DNA of 64,000 nucleotides from an uncultured Gammaproteobacteria bacterium (GTDB lineage: Bacteria; Pseudomonadota; Gammaproteobacteria; Arenicellales; Poriferihabitantaceae), in assembly GCA_937992195.1 (NCBI GenBank), contig CALKKV010000003.1:1-64000 (forward strand). Direction: 5' to 3'. A program made the position numbers and the translations under genes. The notes beneath the pieces were generated by a model, which was not told the origin of the DNA, ran no database searches, and was given only the letters and a program-made list of their open reading frames with translations. Position 1 is the first letter of the stretch; each line of letters opens with the position of its first letter. This document shows, piece after piece, positions 3,490 through 16,514 of the stretch.

Positions 3490-3909
3490 TCAAGACTTCT
3501 TTAATTTCTTTACGTAAAGCACTAACGAGTGATCGACCAGCTCGTAGCCATGTTCTTTGGCAATTTTATTTTGTCTTTTTTCGATGACATCATCTGTGAA
3601 TTCGATGACTTCACCTGAATCCATGCAAACCATATGATCATGGTGATCACCTTTTGCAAGCTCAAAAACTGAATGGCCTGTTTCGAAGTTATGGCGCGTC
3701 ACTAAACCGGCAGTCTCGAATTGAGTTAAGACCCGATAAACCGTTGCCAGGCCGACATCATCTCCCGACTCCAGAAGTGCTTTATAGACATCTTCAGCAC
3801 TCAGATGTTGAGAACTGTCGTCAGTTGTTTCGAGAATACGGAGGATTTTTACCCGTGGTAGTGTGACTTTAAGACCGACATTTCTGAGCTCTTGATTTTC
3901 TTCAAACAT
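3490..3909 (-). CDS. fur: Ferric uptake regulator Fur
   Basis: Fe(II)-responsive dimeric repressor of iron-acquisition genes. It has an N-terminal winged helix (to ~residue 82, including GLATVYRVLTQFE) and a C-terminal metal/dimerisation domain with the HHDH motif. The single cysteine in VCMDSGEVIEF and the short lysine-rich end match the Pseudomonas-type Fur, which lacks the CxxC zinc knuckle of E. coli Fur. At 139 aa it is full length. It is divergent from the iron-transport operon starting at 4277, and the 366-bp gap between them carries a Fur-box-like site. Confidence 0.95.
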   Translation of the reverse strand: MFEENQELRNVGLKVTLPRVKILRILETTDDSSQHLSAEDVYKALLESGDDVGLATVYRVLTQFETAGLVTRHNFETGHSVFELAKGDHHDHMVCMDSGEVIEFTDDVIEKRQNKIAKEHGYELVDHSLVLYVKKLKKS

Positions 3910-4276
3910 AGTATGGTTAGTAGGTAAGTGGTATTCAATTAAGCCGGTCTCGGCCTGCGCTATATTTTATCAGGATTCAGGTGTTACTTCGCAGAATTAA
4001 CAATATATTGTGAGCAATATTGTGTTGGCGTGTCACATTTCTCTGATGAGTGGCGGCAATTTTTAGTGAATTAGAGAGAGGCTTTTTGTCTAGCGCTTCC
4101 TTATTCTGTGCGGTATCAGAACCCATAAAAACTAGTAGCGTAAGTATTATTTGTCATAACCGGCAGAAAACGCAGGAATTATAGTGAAAATAACTTGTAA
4201 TAAGAATTATTATTATTTACATTCCCACTTACAATAGCAATCACAGTTATATTAATCGTAACGACCCAATTTTAAA
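3910..4276. other. Fur / iron-operon divergent intergenic region
   Basis: No gene is seen in this 367-bp gap. It must contain the fur promoter (minus) and the promoter of the iron operon (plus). The only recognisable signal is the AT-rich Fur-box-like tract at 4197-4219. Confidence 0.6.
4197..4219. promoter_or_regulatory. Fur-box-like operator of the iron-uptake operon
   Basis: The tract containing AATAAGAATTATTATTATTT has three or more overlapping NATWAT-type hexamers, 58-80 bp upstream of the DUF4856 gene start. It is the expected place for Fur repression of the five-gene operon. Confidence 0.65.
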
Positions 4277-5671
4277 ATGAAACGACAACAATTAATCCTT
4301 GCAATCACCGCGCTCTCGCTAACTTTTGGGGCGTCTGCTGCTGAGAATGTTTATGGGCCTTTCCCGATAACTGTCAAGGGATATAGTGGCGATAAAACAG
4401 ATTCCACATCCTATACCGGCCAGGTGGCCCGGCAAGTTTTGCATACCTCATTGAAGAAACTTGCCGCAAAAGGAGATGGTAGCAATGCTGATGCTGTCAG
4501 GGCAGATATGATGGCTTACTACTCCGGTAAAGATGCCGGTCGCGCTATTGTTGATCCAAAAACGAAAGATAGTTTTATCGTTGAGCAAACAGATGTCGAC
4601 CAATTGTCCAAAGGAAAGGATCTGCGTGGAAAAACTTATAAAGGAATTATCAGCGGCTGGCCGGGTAACATGACAGGGCAAGAAGTTATCGATTTTATGA
4701 TTGAAAAAGCTGCTGCTTCAAAATCCGGTTTCGATCCGTTAACAGGGTTTAACTATCCTCAGCTTATTTCCAAGTTTGCCATGGGCGCTGTTTTCTATAA
4801 TCAGGCGGTGGATAATTATCTTGATGAAGGGCTAACGGCAGATAACAAACCAAACAATGCGGCATACAAAGAAGGCGCGCACTACACCGGTAAAGAGCAT
4901 GTCTGGGATGAAGCGTTCGGTTACTTTGGCGCCCCGGTTCATGCAATGTCGTTAGATGCTAAGCAGGCCTATAACATTGCGAAGAAAAAAGACCTTTCCG
5001 TTGCTGACTACAATAAAGACGGCAAAATTGATCTGGTTAAAGAGATGACTTTTGGTCACGCATATTATGCCGCGGATGCGGACAAAAGTGGAACTGACTA
5101 TTTGCATACCATTACCAAGGCGTTTATAGACGGAAGAAAACTGATCAGTAGCGCGAATGGAGAGTTGTTAAGTGATGCGCAGCGAAATGAATTAATGGCT
5201 CATGCGTCTACAATCAAAGTCAACTGGGAAAAAGTGATTGCTGAGGCTACTTTTAAGTATGCTGGATCAGTTTATAAAGATATTCAAAAGCTCAACGTAA
5301 TCGTTGAATCTGGTGGTGATGCTAACGAAGCGTTTAACGACTATGCGAAACACTGGGGGGAAATGAAAGGTTTCGCCATGGCATTAGAAGCGGGTGGAAA
5401 GAATCTCGGAGAAACGGATGCAAAGCTTAATCGTCTTATTGGTTTTGGTCCTGCATTGCTCGGTGGCGGTCAGGTAACATCAATCGATAGTGATGGAAAT
5501 TATGTTGTGGGCGGTGATATGGATATGGGTAACTATTCGGTTCATATGATTAAACTCCAGAAATTGTTAGCAGATGCTTATGACCTCAAGGCTTTGAAAA
5601 ATGACGCAACGGCTGAACTTGCTGGGTTGGTTGAGTCTCTAGGTGAAAGCGCGTCTGCTGAAAACGATTAA
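4277..5671 (+). CDS. DUF4856-family secreted protein, iron-operon leader
   Basis: A 464-aa exported protein with a Sec signal peptide (residues 1-21, cleavage after GASA). The sequence matches my memory of DUF4856: a YTGQVARQ segment near the start, KFAMGAVFYNQAV at about 165, and HVWDEAFGYFGAP at about 210. DYNKDGKIDLVKE near residue 245 is an EF-hand-like calcium-loop sequence. Imelysin-like and DUF4856 proteins often sit with iron-uptake genes, and here the gene heads an operon ending in an Fe(III) ABC transporter behind a Fur-box-like site. A role in periplasmic or surface iron capture is inferred from context only. Confidence 0.75.
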   Translation: MKRQQLILAITALSLTFGASAAENVYGPFPITVKGYSGDKTDSTSYTGQVARQVLHTSLKKLAAKGDGSNADAVRADMMAYYSGKDAGRAIVDPKTKDSFIVEQTDVDQLSKGKDLRGKTYKGIISGWPGNMTGQEVIDFMIEKAAASKSGFDPLTGFNYPQLISKFAMGAVFYNQAVDNYLDEGLTADNKPNNAAYKEGAHYTGKEHVWDEAFGYFGAPVHAMSLDAKQAYNIAKKKDLSVADYNKDGKIDLVKEMTFGHAYYAADADKSGTDYLHTITKAFIDGRKLISSANGELLSDAQRNELMAHASTIKVNWEKVIAEATFKYAGSVYKDIQKLNVIVESGGDANEAFNDYAKHWGEMKGFAMALEAGGKNLGETDAKLNRLIGFGPALLGGGQVTSIDSDGNYVVGGDMDMGNYSVHMIKLQKLLADAYDLKALKNDATAELAGLVESLGESASAEND

Positions 5672-5692
5672 GTCATTTTAGGGGTTTAGATC

Positions 5693-6676
5693 ATGATTTG
5701 GGAAATGACCGTTCAGTGGTTTGTCGACCAGTGGGCGGTCAATTTTTTGGATCCGGATAAAAGACTGTTCTGGGGATATCTACTTTCGGCGCTGGTTATT
5801 GCGTTAGTATGGCTGGTTGTGATTCAGCGCCAGCATCCTCGCGCGGGATTAAAGGCACTGTTTTCGAAATCTGTTTGGTGTTCTAAAAGTGCGCGTGCGG
5901 ACTATTTAATCTTTACGCTAAACTCAATATTAATGAGCGCTGTTGTGCCGCGGCTGCTCGGTAGTGCAGCAGTCGCCTACCTGCTTTTTGAATTATTGCA
6001 TGATGCATTTGGCGGTCGTGCAATGATTGCCCATGAGATGCCAAGCTGGGTGATTGCAGCCAGCTTTACTTTCACCTTCTTTTTGCTGGATGACTTGATG
6101 CGATACGTTGTCCACCGGATGATGCATCACATTCCCTTTCTATGGGCATTTCATAAGGTTCACCATAGTGCAACATCTCTAAACCCGCTTACCGTCTTAC
6201 GAACGCATCCGGTGGAAGGCGTGATTTTTGTTTTACGGGGAGCTATCGTTCAAGGATTCTGTATTGCGACATTTGTGTTCTTTTTTGGCAGTGGCGTTAG
6301 CTTGCTTATGATTATGGGAGCCAACGTATTTAAGTTTAGCTTTAATGCACTAGGTTCTAACCTTCGCCATAGTGAAATTCCAATTCAGTACTGGCCTTGG
6401 CTCGAAAAACTATTTTTGTCTCCTGCACAACATCAAATTCACCATTCCATTGATCCGCGTCACTACGATAAAAATTTTGGCGTAACCCTGGCAGTTTGGG
6501 ATGTGTTGTTTTGGTCTCATTGCCACTCAGAGAGTAATCAGAAATTGAAATATGGTGTATATAGTCAAACGTCACAATTTCAAAACAAACATTCGATTGT
6601 TTCACTTTACATTGATCCACTACGGGAAGCGTTCAGTATCTTACTTCGACGAAAAACTCGTCAAACTTCCATTTAG
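5693..6676 (+). CDS. Sterol desaturase/fatty-acid hydroxylase family membrane protein
   Basis: A 327-aa integral membrane diiron oxygenase-like protein. The histidine clusters of the family are present: HRMMHH and HKVHHS in the middle and HQIHHS near residue 248, between hydrophobic segments. The reaction is unknown; relatives hydroxylate or desaturate lipids, sterols or carotenoids. It lies 21 bp after the DUF4856 gene and before fbpA, so it is probably co-transcribed with iron-uptake genes and Fur-controlled. That is an odd setting for a lipid-modifying enzyme. Confidence 0.85.
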   Translation: MIWEMTVQWFVDQWAVNFLDPDKRLFWGYLLSALVIALVWLVVIQRQHPRAGLKALFSKSVWCSKSARADYLIFTLNSILMSAVVPRLLGSAAVAYLLFELLHDAFGGRAMIAHEMPSWVIAASFTFTFFLLDDLMRYVVHRMMHHIPFLWAFHKVHHSATSLNPLTVLRTHPVEGVIFVLRGAIVQGFCIATFVFFFGSGVSLLMIMGANVFKFSFNALGSNLRHSEIPIQYWPWLEKLFLSPAQHQIHHSIDPRHYDKNFGVTLAVWDVLFWSHCHSESNQKLKYGVYSQTSQFQNKHSIVSLYIDPLREAFSILLRRKTRQTSI

Positions 6677-6726
6677 ATCGGAACTACAGAATTGCTATAA
6701 AAATAGTGCTAAATAGAAACCTACCA

Positions 6727-7758
6727 ATGAAAAAAAATCGACCTTATCTTTGTTTTTTAATCGCATTAATTTTCTCCTGTAACAGCTTCGTGGCCTTCGC
6801 AGAAGATTCGGTGGTGAATATATACTCTGCGCGTAAAGAGGCTTTGATACTACCGTTGCTCGAACGATTTCAGAAAGAAACAGGGATCGACTTTCAACTT
6901 GTTACTGGAAAGGCGGACGGTCTGTTAAAGCGAATAGAGATTGAAGGTGAAGCAACGCCGGCGGATATTTTTATAACCGTCGATGCAGGTAGACTGCAGC
7001 GGGCGAAATCTGCAGATATTCTTCAGCCTGTAGAGAGTGATGTGCTGAATAACACAATACCTTCGCACCTGCGGGATAAAGATAATCTGTGGTTTGGACT
7101 GTCACGTCGAGCCCGGGTCATTTTTTATGCCAAGGACCGGGTAACGCCTGCAGAACTCTCTACCTATGAAGGGTTGGCTGATAAAAACTGGCGTGGCAGG
7201 TTATGTATTCGATCATCAAGCAATGTGTATAACCAGTCCCTGGTCGCTTCAATGATCGAGCATATTGGCGCTGAGAAAACAGAAGAATGGGCAAGAGGGC
7301 TGGTTGCAAATTTCGCACGAAAGCCCGGTGGTGGAGATACCAACCAACTGCAAGCGATCGGTGCTGGAGAATGCGATATTACCGTGGTGAACAGCTATTA
7401 CTTTGGGCGTCTGATTAATAGCGACGATCCAAAAGAGGTGGCGACCGCAGAGAAGATCGGAATTTTCTGGCCTAATCAAGATGGTAGAGGTGCCCATGTC
7501 AACGTAAGTGGGGCTGGTGTGACCAAACATGCGAAACACCCTGACGCTGCAAAGAAATTGCTTGAGTTTCTGGTTAAGCCGGAATCACAAAGTTGGTATG
7601 CCGAGGTTAACAATGAATATCCGGTTGTTGCCGATGCCGCTATCCCTGAAACTTTACGTACGTTTGGTGATTTCAAAGCGGATGACCTGGATTTGACCTT
7701 GCTTGGAGAAAAGAATAGGGCGGCCTTACAGCTGATGGATCGCGCAGGCTGGCAGTAG
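6727..7758 (+). CDS. fbpA: Fe(III) ABC transporter, periplasmic binding protein
   Basis: Periplasmic ferric-iron binding protein of the FbpA/FutA family that delivers Fe(III) to the FbpB-type permease. The start at 6727 (MKKNRPY) gives a Sec signal peptide ending near FVAFA; a GTG at 6706 would add seven residues. After the signal the sequence VVNIYSARKEALILPLLERF is typical of the family. The adjacent tyrosines in NSYYFGR are the expected iron ligands. The order SBP, permease, ATPase is standard. A hairpin follows before the permease gene. Confidence 0.92.
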   Translation: MKKNRPYLCFLIALIFSCNSFVAFAEDSVVNIYSARKEALILPLLERFQKETGIDFQLVTGKADGLLKRIEIEGEATPADIFITVDAGRLQRAKSADILQPVESDVLNNTIPSHLRDKDNLWFGLSRRARVIFYAKDRVTPAELSTYEGLADKNWRGRLCIRSSSNVYNQSLVASMIEHIGAEKTEEWARGLVANFARKPGGGDTNQLQAIGAGECDITVVNSYYFGRLINSDDPKEVATAEKIGIFWPNQDGRGAHVNVSGAGVTKHAKHPDAAKKLLEFLVKPESQSWYAEVNNEYPVVADAAIPETLRTFGDFKADDLDLTLLGEKNRAALQLMDRAGWQ

Positions 7759-7870
7759 TGCAAATGCATTGAGGCATGGGCATAATGCGTGCCAACCTTG
7801 AGCGTGATTGCGATGATGTTTTGGCAACTTGATGAACTACCTGGAGCAGCAAGATTCCGGATCGAACCTG

Positions 7871-7890
7871 ACAACCTGATTCCAGGTTGT
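7871..7890 (+). other. Intercistronic hairpin between fbpA and fbpB
   Basis: Perfect 8-bp stem ACAACCTG (7871-7878), loop ATTC, CAGGTTGT (7883-7890). No T-tract follows. It lies in the 158-bp gap between binding protein and permease and could stabilise the 3' end of the binding-protein mRNA, lowering downstream expression. Confidence 0.5.
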
Positions 7891-7916
7891 TCACATGGCG
7901 CGGCGTCTCTACAAGG

Positions 7917-9590
7917 ATGAACCCCGCAGTAACATTGAATCATGGTGCTAAAACTGTGAGACAGTATCCCAGTGGCTGGCTTGTTTCCAGTATCCTGGTT
8001 ACCGCGGTTCTTCTACTACCCATCATCACTATTTGTGCCTATTTATTTGCGCCAACTAGTGAGAATTGGGGGCATCTGGTCGAGACGGTGCTGCCGAGTT
8101 ACGTCTGGAACTCTATTTGGTTGATGATCGGCGTCACCATCGGGGCTGGGACCATTGGCACCGCGACCGCCTGGTTAACCAGTATGTATCGCTTCCCCGG
8201 GCGGAGAATATTTATTTGGGCGTTACTTCTGCCGCTGGCAATGCCTGCGTATATTATTGCCTACACCTATACTGGGATGTTGGATTCGAGCGGCCCTTTA
8301 CAGGAGTGGATCAGGTCCACTTTTGATCTGCAATACAACGAATACTGGTTTCCCGAGATTCGCTCTCTGGGTGGCGCGGTTACCATGTTCTCACTGGTCC
8401 TGTATCCCTATGTGTATCTGTTGGCGCGTGCTGCTTTTATCAACCAGTCTGTCTGCGTGCTTGAGGCAAGTCGCTCGTTAGGGTGTTCTTCGTGGAGCAG
8501 CTTTTTCCAGGTTGCATTGCCGTTGGCAAGACCGGCAATTGTTGCGGGGTTGTCATTGGCACTAATGGAAACATTGGCGGACTACGGAACCGTCCAGTAT
8601 TTTGGCGTGAGCACGTTTACCACTGGAATCTTCCGCACCTGGTTTGGTATGTACGATCCGGTTGCTGCTTCTCAGCTGTCTGCCTTGCTGATGATTTTTG
8701 TTTTCGGTCTGATTATGCTGGAACGCTGGTCTCGCAGTCGCGCACGTTTTCATCACACAACCAATACGTATCAACGGCTGCCAGAAGTTCAGCTTAAACC
8801 TTCGCACGCTTGGGCAGCAACTTGTGTTTGCCTGTTGCCACTGCTGTTTGGGTTTCTAGTGCCATTGATACAGCTGGTGTTATGGGCCATAGAAACGTTT
8901 GATGAAATGGTGGACGCACGATTTATCGTGCTTGCGAAGAACAGTTTTTTGCTGGCAGGTGCTGCCGCAGTAGTTGCTTTGATACCTGCGTTATTACTGG
9001 GGTATGGAAATCGTGCCTATCCTTCTCGCTTGATGCAAGTATGTACACGGTTGGCATCGATGGGGTACGCTATTCCGGGAACGGTGATTGCGATCGGTAT
9101 ATTGATTCCATTCGGTGCCCTAGATAACTCCGTAAATAGCTGGATGAAAACCAATTTTAATGTCAGCACCGGTTTGTTGTTTAGTGGCACAATATTTATC
9201 TTATTATTTGCTTATACGGTTCGATTTTTAGCAGTGTCACTACAAACTGTTGAAGCGGGTTTAGGCAAAGTGAAACCTTCGATGGATGATTCGGCGCGAT
9301 CAATGGGACTTAGTCAAGGTCAGGTATTGAAACGTGTTCATTTGCCGATAATGAAAGGTAGTTTGTTTACTGCGATGGTGATTGTATTTGTGGATGTGCT
9401 AAAAGAGCTGCCAGCAACTCTGGTGCTACGGCCCTTTAATTTTAATACACTTGCGGTAAGAGCCTATGAGCTGGCATCTGATGAGCGACTCGCAGATTCT
9501 TCTACGGCTGCACTAGCTATTGTTGCAGTGGGGATTTTACCTGTGATCATTCTGAGTGCTGCGATTGCCCGGTCACGTGCCGGAAAATAA
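7917..9590 (+). CDS. fbpB: Fe(III) ABC transporter, tandem-domain permease
   Basis: Inner-membrane permease with two fused BPD_transp_1 domains (about 12 TM helices), the FbpB/AfuB layout. EAA-loop sequences occur in each half, near EASRSLGCSSWSSFFQVALP and at DDSARSMGLSQGQVLKRVHLP. About 557 aa from the ATG at 7917, which is the normal length; a TTG at 7887 is possible but would overlap the hairpin. It is followed after five bases by the ATPase gene, so the two are probably translationally coupled. Confidence 0.92.
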   Translation: MNPAVTLNHGAKTVRQYPSGWLVSSILVTAVLLLPIITICAYLFAPTSENWGHLVETVLPSYVWNSIWLMIGVTIGAGTIGTATAWLTSMYRFPGRRIFIWALLLPLAMPAYIIAYTYTGMLDSSGPLQEWIRSTFDLQYNEYWFPEIRSLGGAVTMFSLVLYPYVYLLARAAFINQSVCVLEASRSLGCSSWSSFFQVALPLARPAIVAGLSLALMETLADYGTVQYFGVSTFTTGIFRTWFGMYDPVAASQLSALLMIFVFGLIMLERWSRSRARFHHTTNTYQRLPEVQLKPSHAWAATCVCLLPLLFGFLVPLIQLVLWAIETFDEMVDARFIVLAKNSFLLAGAAAVVALIPALLLGYGNRAYPSRLMQVCTRLASMGYAIPGTVIAIGILIPFGALDNSVNSWMKTNFNVSTGLLFSGTIFILLFAYTVRFLAVSLQTVEAGLGKVKPSMDDSARSMGLSQGQVLKRVHLPIMKGSLFTAMVIVFVDVLKELPATLVLRPFNFNTLAVRAYELASDERLADSSTAALAIVAVGILPVIILSAAIARSRAGK

Positions 9591-9595
9591 TCCAA

Positions 9596-10639
9596 ATGAG
9601 CGAAACTTTAATAACAGAAGATTTATGTATTGATCTTGGCGGTAGCCGTATCGTAGATCACGTGAGCCTTAAACTGATGGCGGGCCAGATCGGTTGTTTG
9701 CTGGGCCCTAGTGGCTGCGGCAAAACCACTTTCTTGCGCACTATTGCTGGTTTTGAGAAGCCCGCGAAAGGTAGTATACATGTTGGATCAGAATTAATTG
9801 CTGATAGCGGCTATTCCATGGCGCCAGAAAAACGACAGGTGGGAATGGTGTTCCAAGATTTAGCCTTGTTTCCGCATCTTACGATAGGAGATAACGTTGG
9901 TTTTGGTATACGTCATTTTTCACCAAAAGAACGTGCTACGCGAGTAAAAGAGTTGCTCGAACTCGTTGGATTAGAAAGCTATAGTGCCAGATTTCCGCAC
10001 GAGCTATCGGGGGGGCAACAGCAACGTATTGCGCTGGTAAGGGCAATGGCTCCGCGCCCTAAATTACTATTACTTGATGAGCCGTTTAGCGGGCAGGACA
10101 CGGAAAGGCGTGCGCAGCTCGCTACTGAAGTGAGCAGGATTCTACGTCAGGATGGAGCTACGGCTTTGTTGGTTACCCACGATCAACATGAGGCGTTTGC
10201 GTTTTCAGATATAACCGGCGTTGTTAACCAGGGACGACTGCTTCAATGGAGCGACCCATTTGATCTATATCATGAGCCTAGCGACCGCTTTGTCGCGAAC
10301 TTTGTTGGACAAGGTGTTTTTGTGCCTGCTCGTGTTTTAAAAGAGAACCGAATCGAAACCGAGCTTGGTATTATGACTGGTGAGCTCACGCATACGCTTG
10401 AGCCAGGTAGCGAGGTCGAGCTTTTAGTTCGTCCGGACGATGTGGTGCATGATGATTTCAGTCCCAATAAAGCGGTGATTGAATCAAGTTCTTTCCGCGG
10501 TGCCGATCACTTATACACTTTGATTTTTCCAGGAGGAGCGCGCGTTCTTTGTTTAGCGCCAAGTCACCACAATCACAAGATTGGTGAGAAGATAGGAGTG
10601 AAGCTGGAACTGGATCATCTTGTGATTTTCCGAAAATAG
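9596..10639 (+). CDS. fbpC: Fe(III) ABC transporter, ATPase
   Basis: ATP-binding subunit powering ferric-iron import. Walker A is GPSGCGKTT (~residue 38), the signature is LSGGQQQR, Walker B is LLLLDEP and the switch histidine is in LLVTHD. The C-terminal ~110 residues form the TOBE/regulatory domain seen in FbpC/PotA-type proteins. 347 aa is full length. It is the last gene of the operon; an inverted repeat follows at 10694. Confidence 0.93.
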   Translation: MSETLITEDLCIDLGGSRIVDHVSLKLMAGQIGCLLGPSGCGKTTFLRTIAGFEKPAKGSIHVGSELIADSGYSMAPEKRQVGMVFQDLALFPHLTIGDNVGFGIRHFSPKERATRVKELLELVGLESYSARFPHELSGGQQQRIALVRAMAPRPKLLLLDEPFSGQDTERRAQLATEVSRILRQDGATALLVTHDQHEAFAFSDITGVVNQGRLLQWSDPFDLYHEPSDRFVANFVGQGVFVPARVLKENRIETELGIMTGELTHTLEPGSEVELLVRPDDVVHDDFSPNKAVIESSSFRGADHLYTLIFPGGARVLCLAPSHHNHKIGEKIGVKLELDHLVIFRK

Positions 10640-12126: not shown

Positions 12127-13032
12127 TTAATCCAGCAGATTCGAGAGATTAGAGCGCGGAACGTGGTTTTGACCGAGCCGTGTGTCCCATAGATCTCCTT
12201 GAGGTTCTGCAAATTCTGCATTGGCAAAAAACGCCTGTTCTCCGCCTATCAGGTAGCTGTTAATTGCGGATTGACCGCTATCTGATAATAGCCATTGCAC
12301 AAATTCTGTTGCCGCCCGGGTATTGGTATGCGGATGCACATCGGCGCTGACCATAACAACACCATATTGGTTAAACAGGTAGGGATCTCCGGTCAGCAGC
12401 ATTTCCAAATTTATACGCTTGGCGTGTTTCAACCATGTGCCGCGATCGCTCAAAGTATACGCGCTCAAACCATCGGCAATATTGAGCGCTGCACTCATAT
12501 TTGCGCCTGTTTCCAAATACCAACTGCCACTTTCTTTAGCGACATTTATCGACAAGTCCTGCCAAATTGACTGTTCTTTAAGGTGGGTGCCGCTGTCATC
12601 AGCGCGAGAAACGAACTTACTACGACTGTTTGCAATCCGCTTAAACGCTTCATGGATATCGTCAATGTGTCGAATGCCTGCAGGATCATTGTGTGGACCC
12701 ACTAATATGAAATCGTTATACATCAGGTCAAAACGTTCTACCCCAAAACCATCCTTTACGAACTGTCGTTCAGAGGGCTTGTGATGACCCAGCAGGATAT
12801 CAGCATCGCCACTTCGCGCCATGCGAATCGCTTGCCCCGTGCCTACAGATTGAATACGTACCCGGATGCCCGACTGCTTTTCAAAAGCAGGGAGAATGGC
12901 GTCATACAGACCGGAGTTTTCTATGGTGGTCGCCGATGCGACGCGAATATTTGTTGACTCACTCAACACCGGTGTCGTCGCTAACAGTAATCCCAAGCCG
13001 GCAAAAGTCAGTTGAAGTAAACCTATTTTCAT
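12127..13032 (-). CDS. TupA-like tungstate/molybdate-binding periplasmic protein
   Basis: 301-aa solute-binding protein with a Sec signal peptide (to ~residue 24). It carries TupA-family hallmarks: ATTIENSGLYDAILPAFEKQ, SVGTGQAIRMARSGDADILL, YNDFILVGP, SRADDSGTHLKE and AYTLSDRGTWL. Family members bind tungstate or molybdate oxyanions. No permease or ATPase gene is adjacent. The gene follows the remains of a molybdenum-dependent sulfite dehydrogenase on the same strand, so it may once have supplied metal for that enzyme. Confidence 0.85.
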   Translation of the reverse strand: MKIGLLQLTFAGLGLLLATTPVLSESTNIRVASATTIENSGLYDAILPAFEKQSGIRVRIQSVGTGQAIRMARSGDADILLGHHKPSERQFVKDGFGVERFDLMYNDFILVGPHNDPAGIRHIDDIHEAFKRIANSRSKFVSRADDSGTHLKEQSIWQDLSINVAKESGSWYLETGANMSAALNIADGLSAYTLSDRGTWLKHAKRINLEMLLTGDPYLFNQYGVVMVSADVHPHTNTRAATEFVQWLLSDSGQSAINSYLIGGEQAFFANAEFAEPQGDLWDTRLGQNHVPRSNLSNLLD

Positions 13033-13117: not shown

Positions 13118-13540
13118 TTATTCGTAGTTGAAAATATCGGGTCGTGGATCAGCAATAAATCCGTCCTTATTCGGCATTTCAACGGCCGCCAGACTTTCTC
13201 CATCCAACGTCGCATTCTTGTCGAAAATATTTGCTTCGCCGAGAACATATGCAACAACTGCATAAACATCATCGTCTGACAAGGAGCCAGGTGCATTAAA
13301 CGGCATTGCGCGTTTAACATAGTCATACACCGTCGATGCATAGGGCCAATAACTTTCAACGGTTTTCTTCGGCTTGCCCGATGCCAAAGAGTCGCGTCCG
13401 CCAATTAATGGTGCAGCACCCAGGTCACTGTTGCCTTCGAGGTTGGCGCCGTGACAAGCAAGACAGTTGGCGGTATAGACTTCTTTACCTTGTTCATAAG
13501 TGCCACTGCCTGGAGGGGCACCGCGTCCGTCTGGCATCAC
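13118..13540 (-). CDS. soxD: SoxD-like cytochrome c, fused to a soxC scar
   Basis: Class I c-type cytochrome resembling the SoxD subunit of sulfite (sulfane) dehydrogenase. The haem site is CLACH and the likely methionine ligand is in AMPFNAPG; SYWPYASTVYDYVKRAMPF and the C-terminal MPNKDGFIADPRPDIF are SoxD-like. The frame has no signal peptide of its own: read upstream from 13540 it runs in frame into SoxC sequence (EWTGVPLSTLLREVGVEKG) with no intervening stop until the TAG at 13670. The N-terminus is therefore missing and the product is probably not exported or functional. Confidence 0.7.
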   Translation of the reverse strand: MMPDGRGAPPGSGTYEQGKEVYTANCLACHGANLEGNSDLGAAPLIGGRDSLASGKPKKTVESYWPYASTVYDYVKRAMPFNAPGSLSDDDVYAVVAYVLGEANIFDKNATLDGESLAAVEMPNKDGFIADPRPDIFNYE

Positions 13541-14145
13541 ATCGATATCAATTGCCGCGCCTTTTTCTACGCCTACTTCTCTTAATAAGGTAGAAAGCGG
13601 AACCCCGGTCCATTCAGATGTGCTGGTTAATCCATGGGTGCCTTGTACAGACTTAAGCGCCGGTTCTCGCTATTCAGTGAGGCCGTTACCCGAGCATTCG
13701 ATAAAATGGAATTTTGATACAGATGGAAAACGTTTCAGGTCTTCCATCGTATATTTTTTCGGGCTATTGACCAAGCCATGAACAACCATGGTATGGGTAG
13801 CGGGATCAATATTTGGTATGCCGCCATGGTGTCTTTCAAAGTGCAGCGCGGACGGTGTAACGATTCCGTTACTACTCTCCAGCGGTGTCATGGTCCATGA
13901 TGACTCTTTGGTTTTGGTTGGATAGCGCCAACGAACTTCACTTTCGAATTGTGATCTAAAACCATAACCACCATCGTCATGGGTAAGACGCCCTTGTTCT
14001 TTGGTGAGATCCCCTGAATAGGGAAATCTATTGCACCTGGTGGTGCCGCAGCGTGCGCGGTAGCTCCGGCGGTGACAGCAGCACTCGCGGCTGCGGCTGT
14101 CAGAAATTGACGTCGACTGGATGACACATCATTATCAGCCGCCAA
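13541..14145 (-). pseudogene. soxC: Broken soxC (Mo sulfite dehydrogenase), frameshift + stop + deletion
   Basis: Remains of the molybdopterin subunit SoxC. From the N-terminus: a twin-arginine signal (SSRRQFLTAAAA) ends in a frame that is lost near 14,020. The second frame holds TPSALHFERHHGGIPNIDP and FHFIECSGNGLTE, including the presumed Mo-ligand Cys, then meets a TAG (13670-13672) where family members have Trp. The same frame resumes with HGLTSTSEWTGVPLSTLLRE and then passes straight into SoxD sequence, so the SoxC C-terminal half is deleted. Three independent lesions make this a clear pseudogene. No ATG start is seen for the Tat segment; the frame stays open upstream to a TGA. Confidence 0.85.
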
Positions 14146-14710: not shown

Positions 14711-15760
14711 CTATGCAGGAGGAAGGGTTTCTGTGTACTTGGTGTTACCCTGATAGTAAGTGCCTTTGCCTTCCTGACTTTCTATTCCGTTTCTTTGTGC
14801 TTTTTCATCTATCACCGGGTTTATCGGCCTTGCGTTGTGAGCGCGTAACCACAATCTTAACAAATGTCTTTGTTTTTCCGGATCCGGGCTATCGAAAAAT
14901 TCGGTGCGGGTGTGCAGTACGACATAGTTATTGAAAAATGCAATTTCTCCCGGCTCCATCATAAAGTTCAAACGAAACTCTTCACTGTGCGCAACCTCAT
15001 CGAGGTAATCCAACGCTTCATTTTCCAATTTTTGTTTTTCTAAACCAAGTTCCTCAAAAGCCATTTCAATATAGCTGCGCAAATAACAAATACTGAGGTA
15101 GCCATCTTTCTCAGAAAATACCGGCACTTTTTCCTCGCTAACTGGAGATTCACCAGGGAGATGCTCACCGAACCGGTGATAGAGAAAGCCTTCTTCCAAT
15201 ACAGGAATCAATTCAGGTCGATGCTTTGCGATATGGTTAAAAACAGCTGGGCCGCTCGCGTATCCACTTAGTCCGCCTTTTTCTGCAGGCACAAGACACA
15301 TCATGCCAACAATATCACTGGCATCGGTATGCAGAGCGAGTTCTAAACTGTTTCGATAAGCACGTTCTCGTTGATCTTTTCCGCCCACGTTCACTACGTG
15401 TCCAAGTTTGTCGCCCATCGGGCTTTGCGATTGTGCTTCACCAAAGTAAGTAGAGATGCCCCAGTAAATAATTGCACATTCTTCTTTGCTGTACTTTTCA
15501 GTATCTATTCCTTTGAGTAGTAAGAGGCCTTTGCCTTCCTGCACTTCACTCACCCATTTATCTATTTCTTTTTCAATGGTAGAAATTGGAAAATCATCCT
15601 GGGTGATCTCTTCGACCTGAATATTCCGCTTTTGCACATGCCGAAGGGCTTGATCAAGTGTGTCTAGTACTTCTTTCTCGAGCTGAAAAGTAATCTCAGA
15701 TTTCGATTTAATATCACCGTTTTTCCAGGCTGACACGTGATCATAAAAATGCTGGCTCAT
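14711..15760 (-). CDS. TauD/TfdA-family Fe(II)/2-oxoglutarate dioxygenase
   Basis: ~349-aa non-haem iron oxygenase that couples 2-oxoglutarate decarboxylation to substrate hydroxylation. The facial triad is readable: H and D in LALHTDAS (~residue 145) and the distal His in VVLHTRTEF, followed by the 2OG-binding Arg in RHLLRLWLRA. The substrate is unknown; taurine, carnitine/butyrobetaine or other small acids are typical. I start at the second Met (15760, MSQHFYDH); a Met at 15772 adds four residues. It is divergent from the DMSP-lyase-like cupin, which suggests a shared promoter region. Confidence 0.87.
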   Translation of the reverse strand: MSQHFYDHVSAWKNGDIKSKSEITFQLEKEVLDTLDQALRHVQKRNIQVEEITQDDFPISTIEKEIDKWVSEVQEGKGLLLLKGIDTEKYSKEECAIIYWGISTYFGEAQSQSPMGDKLGHVVNVGGKDQRERAYRNSLELALHTDASDIVGMMCLVPAEKGGLSGYASGPAVFNHIAKHRPELIPVLEEGFLYHRFGEHLPGESPVSEEKVPVFSEKDGYLSICYLRSYIEMAFEELGLEKQKLENEALDYLDEVAHSEEFRLNFMMEPGEIAFFNNYVVLHTRTEFFDSPDPEKQRHLLRLWLRAHNARPINPVIDEKAQRNGIESQEGKGTYYQGNTKYTETLPPA

Positions 15761-15902
15761 AGTTGCTTCCATAATTGATTCGTTTAGTATCGATTACAAT
15801 AATATGGATTATTCTGATCAATACCTGGGAGAAATTCAAATAAAACAGAATACTGCGATTAGTTTTAGTCATAATGCGTTTGGATTCGGGAGTAAAAGAA
15901 CT

Positions 15903-16514
15903 ATGCAAAAAATAAATCCGTCAGTAGATATGTCTCACTTGGGTTGTGAGTGGATGGATATATTGCAAACTCAATGCCCGCCGGATTGGAAAGCACTGCT
16001 ACCTTCAGTGAATCTTGCTCGCACAGACCGCTTGTTACCTGCTAATTCGCTACCGGTTTTGTCCTATCTTCCAGAGATGGTCGAGCTGGCCCCGTCGTAT
16101 AATCAACCGCTGATAAAAGAGTTGATAAAACACAGAACAAAGCTTCACTTTAACCAGACCTATGGTGAAGATGATTTTGGTGCTGATTTTTTAAAACGGT
16201 ACGGCTGGATTAAATTTCTAGGTCCAGATGCTTATTGGCATAGCGATTCTCTGTCTAGCGGATTAGTTCTGTTGGGTGATAATGTATTGTATCCAGAACA
16301 CTGGCATGAAGCGGAAGAGCTTTATTTTCCTATTAGTGGCAGCGGTGACTGGTATCATGAAAACTATGGGTGGCGGCCTAAATCACCTGGGGATTGCATC
16401 GCCCATGAAAGCAACGTTAAACACGCTGTACGTACTAGTGGCGAGCCGCTTCTGTTATTGTACATTTGGAGAGGTGGTGATTTGCAACAAAAGTCTGACT
16501 ATCACAAGCGCTGA
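15903..16514 (+). CDS. DMSP-lyase-like cupin (DddL/DddQ family)
   Basis: Cupin metalloprotein resembling the DddL/DddQ/DddW dimethylsulfoniopropionate lyases, which cleave DMSP to dimethyl sulfide and acrylate. The metal-binding motif is YPEHWHEAEELYFPISG, with a second part GDCIAHESNVKHAV supplying the last histidine and a C-terminal EPLLLLYIWRGG typical of DddL. I prefer the ATG at 15903, which has GGGAG about ten bases upstream and leaves room for divergent promoters. An ATG at 15804 adds 33 unlikely-looking residues and lies only 43 bp from the dioxygenase start. The lyase activity itself is inferred. Confidence 0.75.
   Translation: MQKINPSVDMSHLGCEWMDILQTQCPPDWKALLPSVNLARTDRLLPANSLPVLSYLPEMVELAPSYNQPLIKELIKHRTKLHFNQTYGEDDFGADFLKRYGWIKFLGPDAYWHSDSLSSGLVLLGDNVLYPEHWHEAEELYFPISGSGDWYHENYGWRPKSPGDCIAHESNVKHAVRTSGEPLLLLYIWRGGDLQQKSDYHKR

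Follow-up and report, generated by a model that had tools for sequence, protein, structure and literature searches.

Positions 4277 to 10639 of the 64,000-nucleotide stretch of DNA analysed here (contig CALKKV010000003.1 of an uncultured gammaproteobacterium, hereafter the window) hold five co-directional + strand genes, which encode a DUF4856 protein, an integral membrane protein of the FA_hydroxylase family (FAH) and the three parts of an FbpABC-type ferric ABC importer. The order DUF4856–hydroxylase–fbpA–fbpB–fbpC had been proposed in an earlier note on this DNA, and profile matches and reading frames bear it out, with all five genes present in one direction. The same note called the genes close-spaced; in gene order the gaps are 21, 50, 158 and 5 nucleotides (nt), so that this part of the claim fails for the fbpA–fbpB gap and stands for the other three. 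The features are as follows (protein lengths in amino acids, aa).

4199–4217, strand not applicable: Fur-box-like site, 59 nt before the DUF4856 ATG
4277–5671, + strand: DUF4856 protein, 464 aa (PF16148, 43 bits, cut-off 22.3)
5654–5668, + strand: codons for the C-terminal tail S-A-E-N-D, within the DUF4856 gene
5693–6676, + strand: FAH, 327 aa (PF04116, 83.4 bits, cut-off 31)
6727–7758, + strand: FutA/FbpA-type ferric-binding protein, 343 aa (by homology to solved structures)
7917–9590, + strand: FbpB-type double permease, 557 aa (two BPD_transp_1 stretches)
9596–10639, + strand: FbpC-type ATPase (TOBE_2 domain)
3490–3909, − strand: Fur, divergent neighbour (NCBIfam NF006999, 195.5 bits, cut-off 146)
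2249–2467, − strand: bacterioferritin-associated ferredoxin, Bfd (over the Pfam cut-off, under the NCBIfam Bfd cut-off)
1579–2058, − strand: bacterioferritin, Bfr (TIGR00754, 253.5 bits)

For fbpA the ATG at 6727 is preferred as start over 6706, and the best start codon of the permease gene is the ATG at 7917. The 158-nt gap gave no Rfam match and no significant RNA structure, and promoter and terminator scans returned results at chance level. Because Fur, Bfd and Bfr adjoin the operon on the opposite strand, the whole stretch reads as an iron neighbourhood. Comparison with solved structures places the binding protein in the FutA family: residues 29–343 align to 6g7n (364 bits, 8e-108) and residues 26–343 to FutA2 (2pt1; 346 bits, 2.5e-102), the two closest solved structures over its full length. 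NCBIfam subfamily names for it, such as 2-aminoethylphosphonate, all scored far below their cut-offs, and its sequence contains a Tyr-Tyr pair, NSYYFG, a putative iron ligand.

A gene-neighbourhood survey of DUF4856 with FbpABC had been set beforehand as a test of the association, and the linkage proved to be conserved. Species genomes were scanned and yielded 129 DUF4856 relatives; the best 80 of the 129, together with nine loci from a scan of 398 genomes of the phylum and the window itself, form a set of 90 loci from outside the Bacteroidota, L001, a copy of the window, being dropped from all counts. FAH, or an FAH-FbpA fusion, follows DUF4856 directly on the same strand in 82/90 loci. The other eight comprise five loci of a second arrangement with FAH at the third position downstream, two contig ends (L051 and L055) and L004, where no FAH lies beside DUF4856 and Fbp genes stand a few genes off, adjoining unread bases. 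FbpB was found near DUF4856 in 44/90 loci, many of the 90 being too short to show it, and across the 90 loci FAH and Fbp are the only widely recurrent neighbour families. All 19 genomes that carry the DUF4856-FAH pair with no adjoining Fbp have a FutA/FbpA relative elsewhere (each at E<=5e-76), compared with 74 of 200 genomes of the phylum at the slacker threshold of E<=1e-60. PF16148 was not matched on plasmids.

The association with FAH also holds at the level of whole genomes. PF16148 occurs in 10 of the 398 genomes, and all 10 have an FAH of at least 175 bits (lowest 191.4), a line that was chosen after the scores were known, the next genome standing at 165.7 bits. Among the 388 genomes lacking DUF4856, four have an FAH above this line, three of them with imelysin operons and the fourth being G368, whose orphan FAH (L109:6187-7101) scores near the FAH of the second arrangement. 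Twenty FAH regions were fetched: fifteen represent relatives below 175 bits, found in unrelated settings where an FAH was found at all, and the other five are G368, the three imelysin loci and G280. No FAH was labelled in L116, L120 and L128 after tiling. A more distant relative, L113:7666-9504, is part of a 612-residue open frame that exceeds the length of FAH by itself, and its gene context is unrelated.

The tie between hydroxylase and binding protein can be covalent. Six loci (L002, L041, L044, L050, L078 and, from genome G280, L119) encode FAH and FbpA in one open frame of 669–687 residues, with both parts at full length and one hydrophobic segment in between. The junction of L078 has no in-frame start codon and that of L044 a single TTG, neither having an in-frame ATG or GTG. 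The FAH tree places the fusions in at least two supported positions: L041, L050 and L119 form one group (100/100), and the sister of L002 is the unfused FAH of the window (100/95). The earlier note had held that the DUF4856 protein and the hydroxylase lie outside the classic Fbp system; this is upheld, and conserved linkage, fusion and iron context now tie both to Fbp.

The fusions also bear on membrane orientation. In 5/5 fusions counted (six being known), Lys and Arg are more numerous ahead of the junction segment than behind it, and the C-terminal part of FAH would be cytoplasmic because the FbpA part, if periplasmic as its function demands, sits across that segment. Predicted helices put the FAH His positions on the same side as its C-terminal part. 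Judged from this charge bias and the predicted helices, the catalytic side of FAH probably faces the cytoplasm.

Ten His residues are conserved in 86–87 of 87 FAH relatives, and in all 54 rows of a second alignment, so that the metal site looks intact; the partial FAH sequences of L001 and L086–L089 were left out of both the conservation count and the tree. The AlphaFold2 model of FAH is confident (pLDDT 93.5), and a fold search against the PDB gave no significant match, Scs7p (4zr0) being listed at E 6.4 with a TM score of 0.25. Assignment to the ornithine-lipid hydroxylase OlsE falls far under threshold (NCBIfam 41.4 bits, cut-off 475).

FAH of this kind occurs in three arrangements. Type 1, that of the window, is the DUF4856-FAH pair, alone or joined by FbpABC. 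Type 2 (L091–L095) has a long DUF4856 followed by an imelysin, a TonB-dependent receptor and FAH, and type 3 (L110–L112) an imelysin, a di-haem oxidoreductase (DHOR), a second imelysin, FAH and a MauG-like peroxidase, with FTR1 nearby in L111 and L112. A tree of 94 FAH unites the three types (98/89) and separates them from seven other FAH; the support values are rough, L093 and L125 are long branches and these seven form the whole out-group.

Candidate Fur sites were scored against a 19-position consensus. The earlier note had placed a Fur-box-like site before DUF4856, and the best match upstream of the window's gene is indeed found there, with 14/19 positions, a score equalled or beaten in 2.0% of 2000 first-order simulated upstreams; taken alone, this candidate site is suggestive. 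The signal is stronger across relatives, where a match of at least 15/19 lies upstream of DUF4856 in 23 of 86 cases as opposed to 16 of 811 other genes of the same loci, rows that are related and not phylogenetically independent, so that a Fisher test overstates the contrast (4/90 loci were left out because they have no 250 nt of upstream sequence). L044 has a perfect consensus site upstream of DUF4856. The top Fur-box match of the whole 64 kb, 15/19 at 2522–2540, lies between bfd and a methyltransferase-like gene at 2676.

The DUF4856 protein has a signal-peptide-like N-terminus and is helical, with a confident model (pLDDT 92.5). Ten residues are the same in both DUF4856 variants (E207, H208, D211, E212, Y216, D244, E256, D269, Y328 and E362) and H359 is nearly invariant; these conserved acidic and His residues would fit a metal site. 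The stretches EHVWDE and H359-WG-E362 resemble the HxxE motif, a resemblance that does not in itself confer membership in the imelysins. By sequence, homology to imelysin was rejected (no PF09375 match at E<=1; hhalign probability 0.8%), and superposition of imelysin 3n8u on the model (Z 4.9, root-mean-square deviation 3.6 over 105 residues) was no better than for unrelated helical chains. The idea that DUF4856 is a plain replacement for imelysin found no support either: imelysins are also present in four of the five type-1 genomes among the 398 (G135, G158, G226 and G280), leaving the window's genome as the only one with no imelysin match.

What DUF4856 shares with certain imelysins is its extreme C-terminus. 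E[NT]D, a form of [DE]xD, ends 83 of 85 type-1 DUF4856 proteins, a count that leaves out the five type-2 rows, and the tail, SAEND in the window, follows a variable linker of low model confidence; the two misses, L019 and L051, look like broken frames. The type-2 imelysin ends in DND, its DUF4856 ending otherwise, and the second imelysin of type 3 in DGD. We checked the link between tail and FAH on 40 fetched ordinary imelysin loci (L129–L168), which have no labelled FAH. Second imelysins were recovered in all but four of these loci and end in DGD in 34/36 (e.g. L138:4437-5549), the two lacking a [DE]xD tail, L143 and L156, looking like cut frames. Overall, 42 of 44 second-imelysin-like proteins end in [DE]xD, including all 8 from FAH loci, compared with 0/42 first imelysins and 4/739 other neighbours of DUF4856; a background count of 17/269 is disregarded, as unlabelled second imelysins had entered it. 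The idea that the tail marks the hydroxylase was consequently dropped: since DGD is common in second imelysins without FAH, the acidic tail, on these counts of predicted C-termini, is a mark of one exported partner in such iron operons in general. The last residues of the solved second imelysin IPPA are reported to be disordered in its structure, and a word search for DGD in the accessible text of the paper describing it found nothing.

Taken together, we lean towards the view that the locus encodes an Fe(III) uptake module, linked to Fur and found in marine bacteria, in which a dedicated membrane oxygenase acts in capture. We infer iron to be the substrate taken up, and the uptake part, in which exported DUF4856 would handle Fe(III) or an Fe(III) complex beyond the cytoplasmic membrane and the FutA-type binding protein and FbpBC would import it, is well supported by context. 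FAH would be a dedicated partner, kept beside the binding protein and at times covalently joined to it, whose metal-oxygenase centre, most likely facing the cytoplasm, may make or oxidise a small membrane-associated molecule on which capture or hand-over depends; the substrate given to FAH here is a guess. The earlier note had suggested that DUF4856 and the hydroxylase might process or display a lipid or surface ligand that binds iron. This part of the note found no support here; a catalytic side in the cytoplasm would make it harder for the hydroxylase to act directly on a surface ligand that is exported.

Several observations weigh against this reading. FbpB was not seen in 46/90 loci, many of them cut short, and the Fur site of the window itself, at 14/19, is no better than moderate. 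DUF4856 has no sequence link to imelysin, and its model gave no clear fold match in the PDB, with no Foldseek row at E 0.001. In four of the six fusions (L002, L041, L050 and L119) the junction contains an in-frame Met, from which the second part could be translated separately. G368 carries a close FAH and yet has no DUF4856 or imelysin match, and FAH is not required by every such system, since the 40 ordinary imelysin operons have none labelled.

The role of FAH could also be read differently. It might take the redox position filled in other M75-type iron operons by EfeB, DHOR or a MauG-like peroxidase, and during uptake oxidise iron or its carrier or alter their redox state in some other way. 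DHOR is labelled in all 39 loci with a recovered second imelysin (L110–L112 and 36 of the 40 fetched), a MauG-like protein is present in 3/3 FAH-bearing imelysin-pair operons, and the five type-2 loci have no labelled DHOR and FAH as the sole redox enzyme seen; imelysins with EfeB-like partners are also described in PMC3143127. We nevertheless find this unlikely, because type 3 holds DHOR, MauG and FAH together, so that FAH is not a simple substitute, and a cytoplasmic metal centre would be on the wrong side for periplasmic iron. The type-1 loci were examined for recurrent neighbours and not by a DHOR profile search. Known members of the FA_hydroxylase family, moreover, act on lipids and sterols.

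Another possibility is that FAH remodels membrane lipid under iron limitation, like the ornithine-lipid hydroxylases, and is simply co-regulated with iron uptake. The Pfam family and the weak OlsE similarity agree with it; strict pairing with DUF4856 in two arrangements, the occurrence of FAH with imelysins in a third, and its fusion to the ferric-binding protein exceed what co-regulation needs, and we rate it slightly lower still. Least probable, and by our estimate quite improbable, is modification by FAH of the DUF4856 tail itself, for example beta-hydroxylation of Asp or Asn to make an Fe(III) ligand on the protein. The nearly constant E[NT]D end after a poorly ordered linker and the DND and DGD ends of the type-2 imelysins and type-3 second imelysins invite this idea, but the tail is independent of FAH, being found in operons that lack it, and a cytoplasmic orientation would demand modification before export.

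The proposed uptake module with a membrane oxygenase resembles, and departs from, several known systems. Like FbpABC/FutABC it has a full-length FutA2 homologue as binding protein, a double permease and a TOBE ATPase, but its operon is led by DUF4856 and FAH, and six loci carry the binding protein as the downstream part of a fusion with the hydroxylase. With imelysin operons of the PA4370–PA4373 type (imelysin, di-haem enzyme, second imelysin), of which three hold an FAH of the same clade, it has in common a helical, exported protein that carries an HxxE stretch and ends in an acidic tail, whereas DUF4856 is not an imelysin by sequence and the window's operon has no di-haem enzyme; the Pseudomonas operon is reported to be Fur-regulated in PMC3143127. 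EfeUOB/M, as outlined in PMC9174327, offers a similar scheme of an M75-type extracytoplasmic protein, an oxidising enzyme and an inner-membrane importer, but the window's five genes, to which the search was confined, include no FTR1, cupredoxin or DyP peroxidase, and FbpBC would import instead. FAH shares its Pfam domain and conserved His clusters with the OlsE/fatty-acid hydroxylase superfamily, yet it is linked to iron genes. Ferric ABC import and imelysin operons are known already; neither the pairing of DUF4856 with FAH, nor the fusion with FutA, nor the common acidic tail was found in the open-access literature searched (most subscription journals lying outside it), which yielded no paper naming DUF4856 or PF16148 and none joining imelysin with a sterol desaturase or fatty acid hydroxylase.

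Elsewhere in the window, a − strand gene at 12127–13032 encodes a solute-binding protein of the PBP_like_2 family, perhaps, by its resemblance, for tungstate or molybdate. An open c-type cytochrome frame (13118–13540) adjoins a broken molybdopterin sulfite-dehydrogenase-like gene (13541–14145, − strand; in fragments, with several stops), which we take to be SoxC-like. A TauD-type dioxygenase gene (14711–15772) adjoins one for a DMSP (dimethylsulfoniopropionate) lyase domain protein (15804–16514, + strand; PF16867, 81.5 bits), a marine sulfur trait.

Iron is a limiting nutrient for marine productivity, and bacteria commonly acquire it through FutA/Fbp-type uptake. An exported protein tightly paired with a membrane oxygenase on this route implies that ferric uptake includes an oxygen-dependent step, one absent from the textbook Fbp model, and conservation of the set in many marine bacteria suggests an undescribed oxygen-using step in bacterial iron uptake. 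More speculatively, and we hold it to be doubtful, this could be an iron importer of a new class: an integral oxygenase, fused or docked to the ferric-binding protein, would make an oxidised ligand in the inner membrane, and this ligand would pass iron between exported DUF4856 and the ABC transporter, with [DE]xD-COOH as a hand-over signal common to otherwise unrelated proteins. The fusions and the common tail provide concrete handles (topology, partner and peptide), and testing them would give DUF4856 a function.

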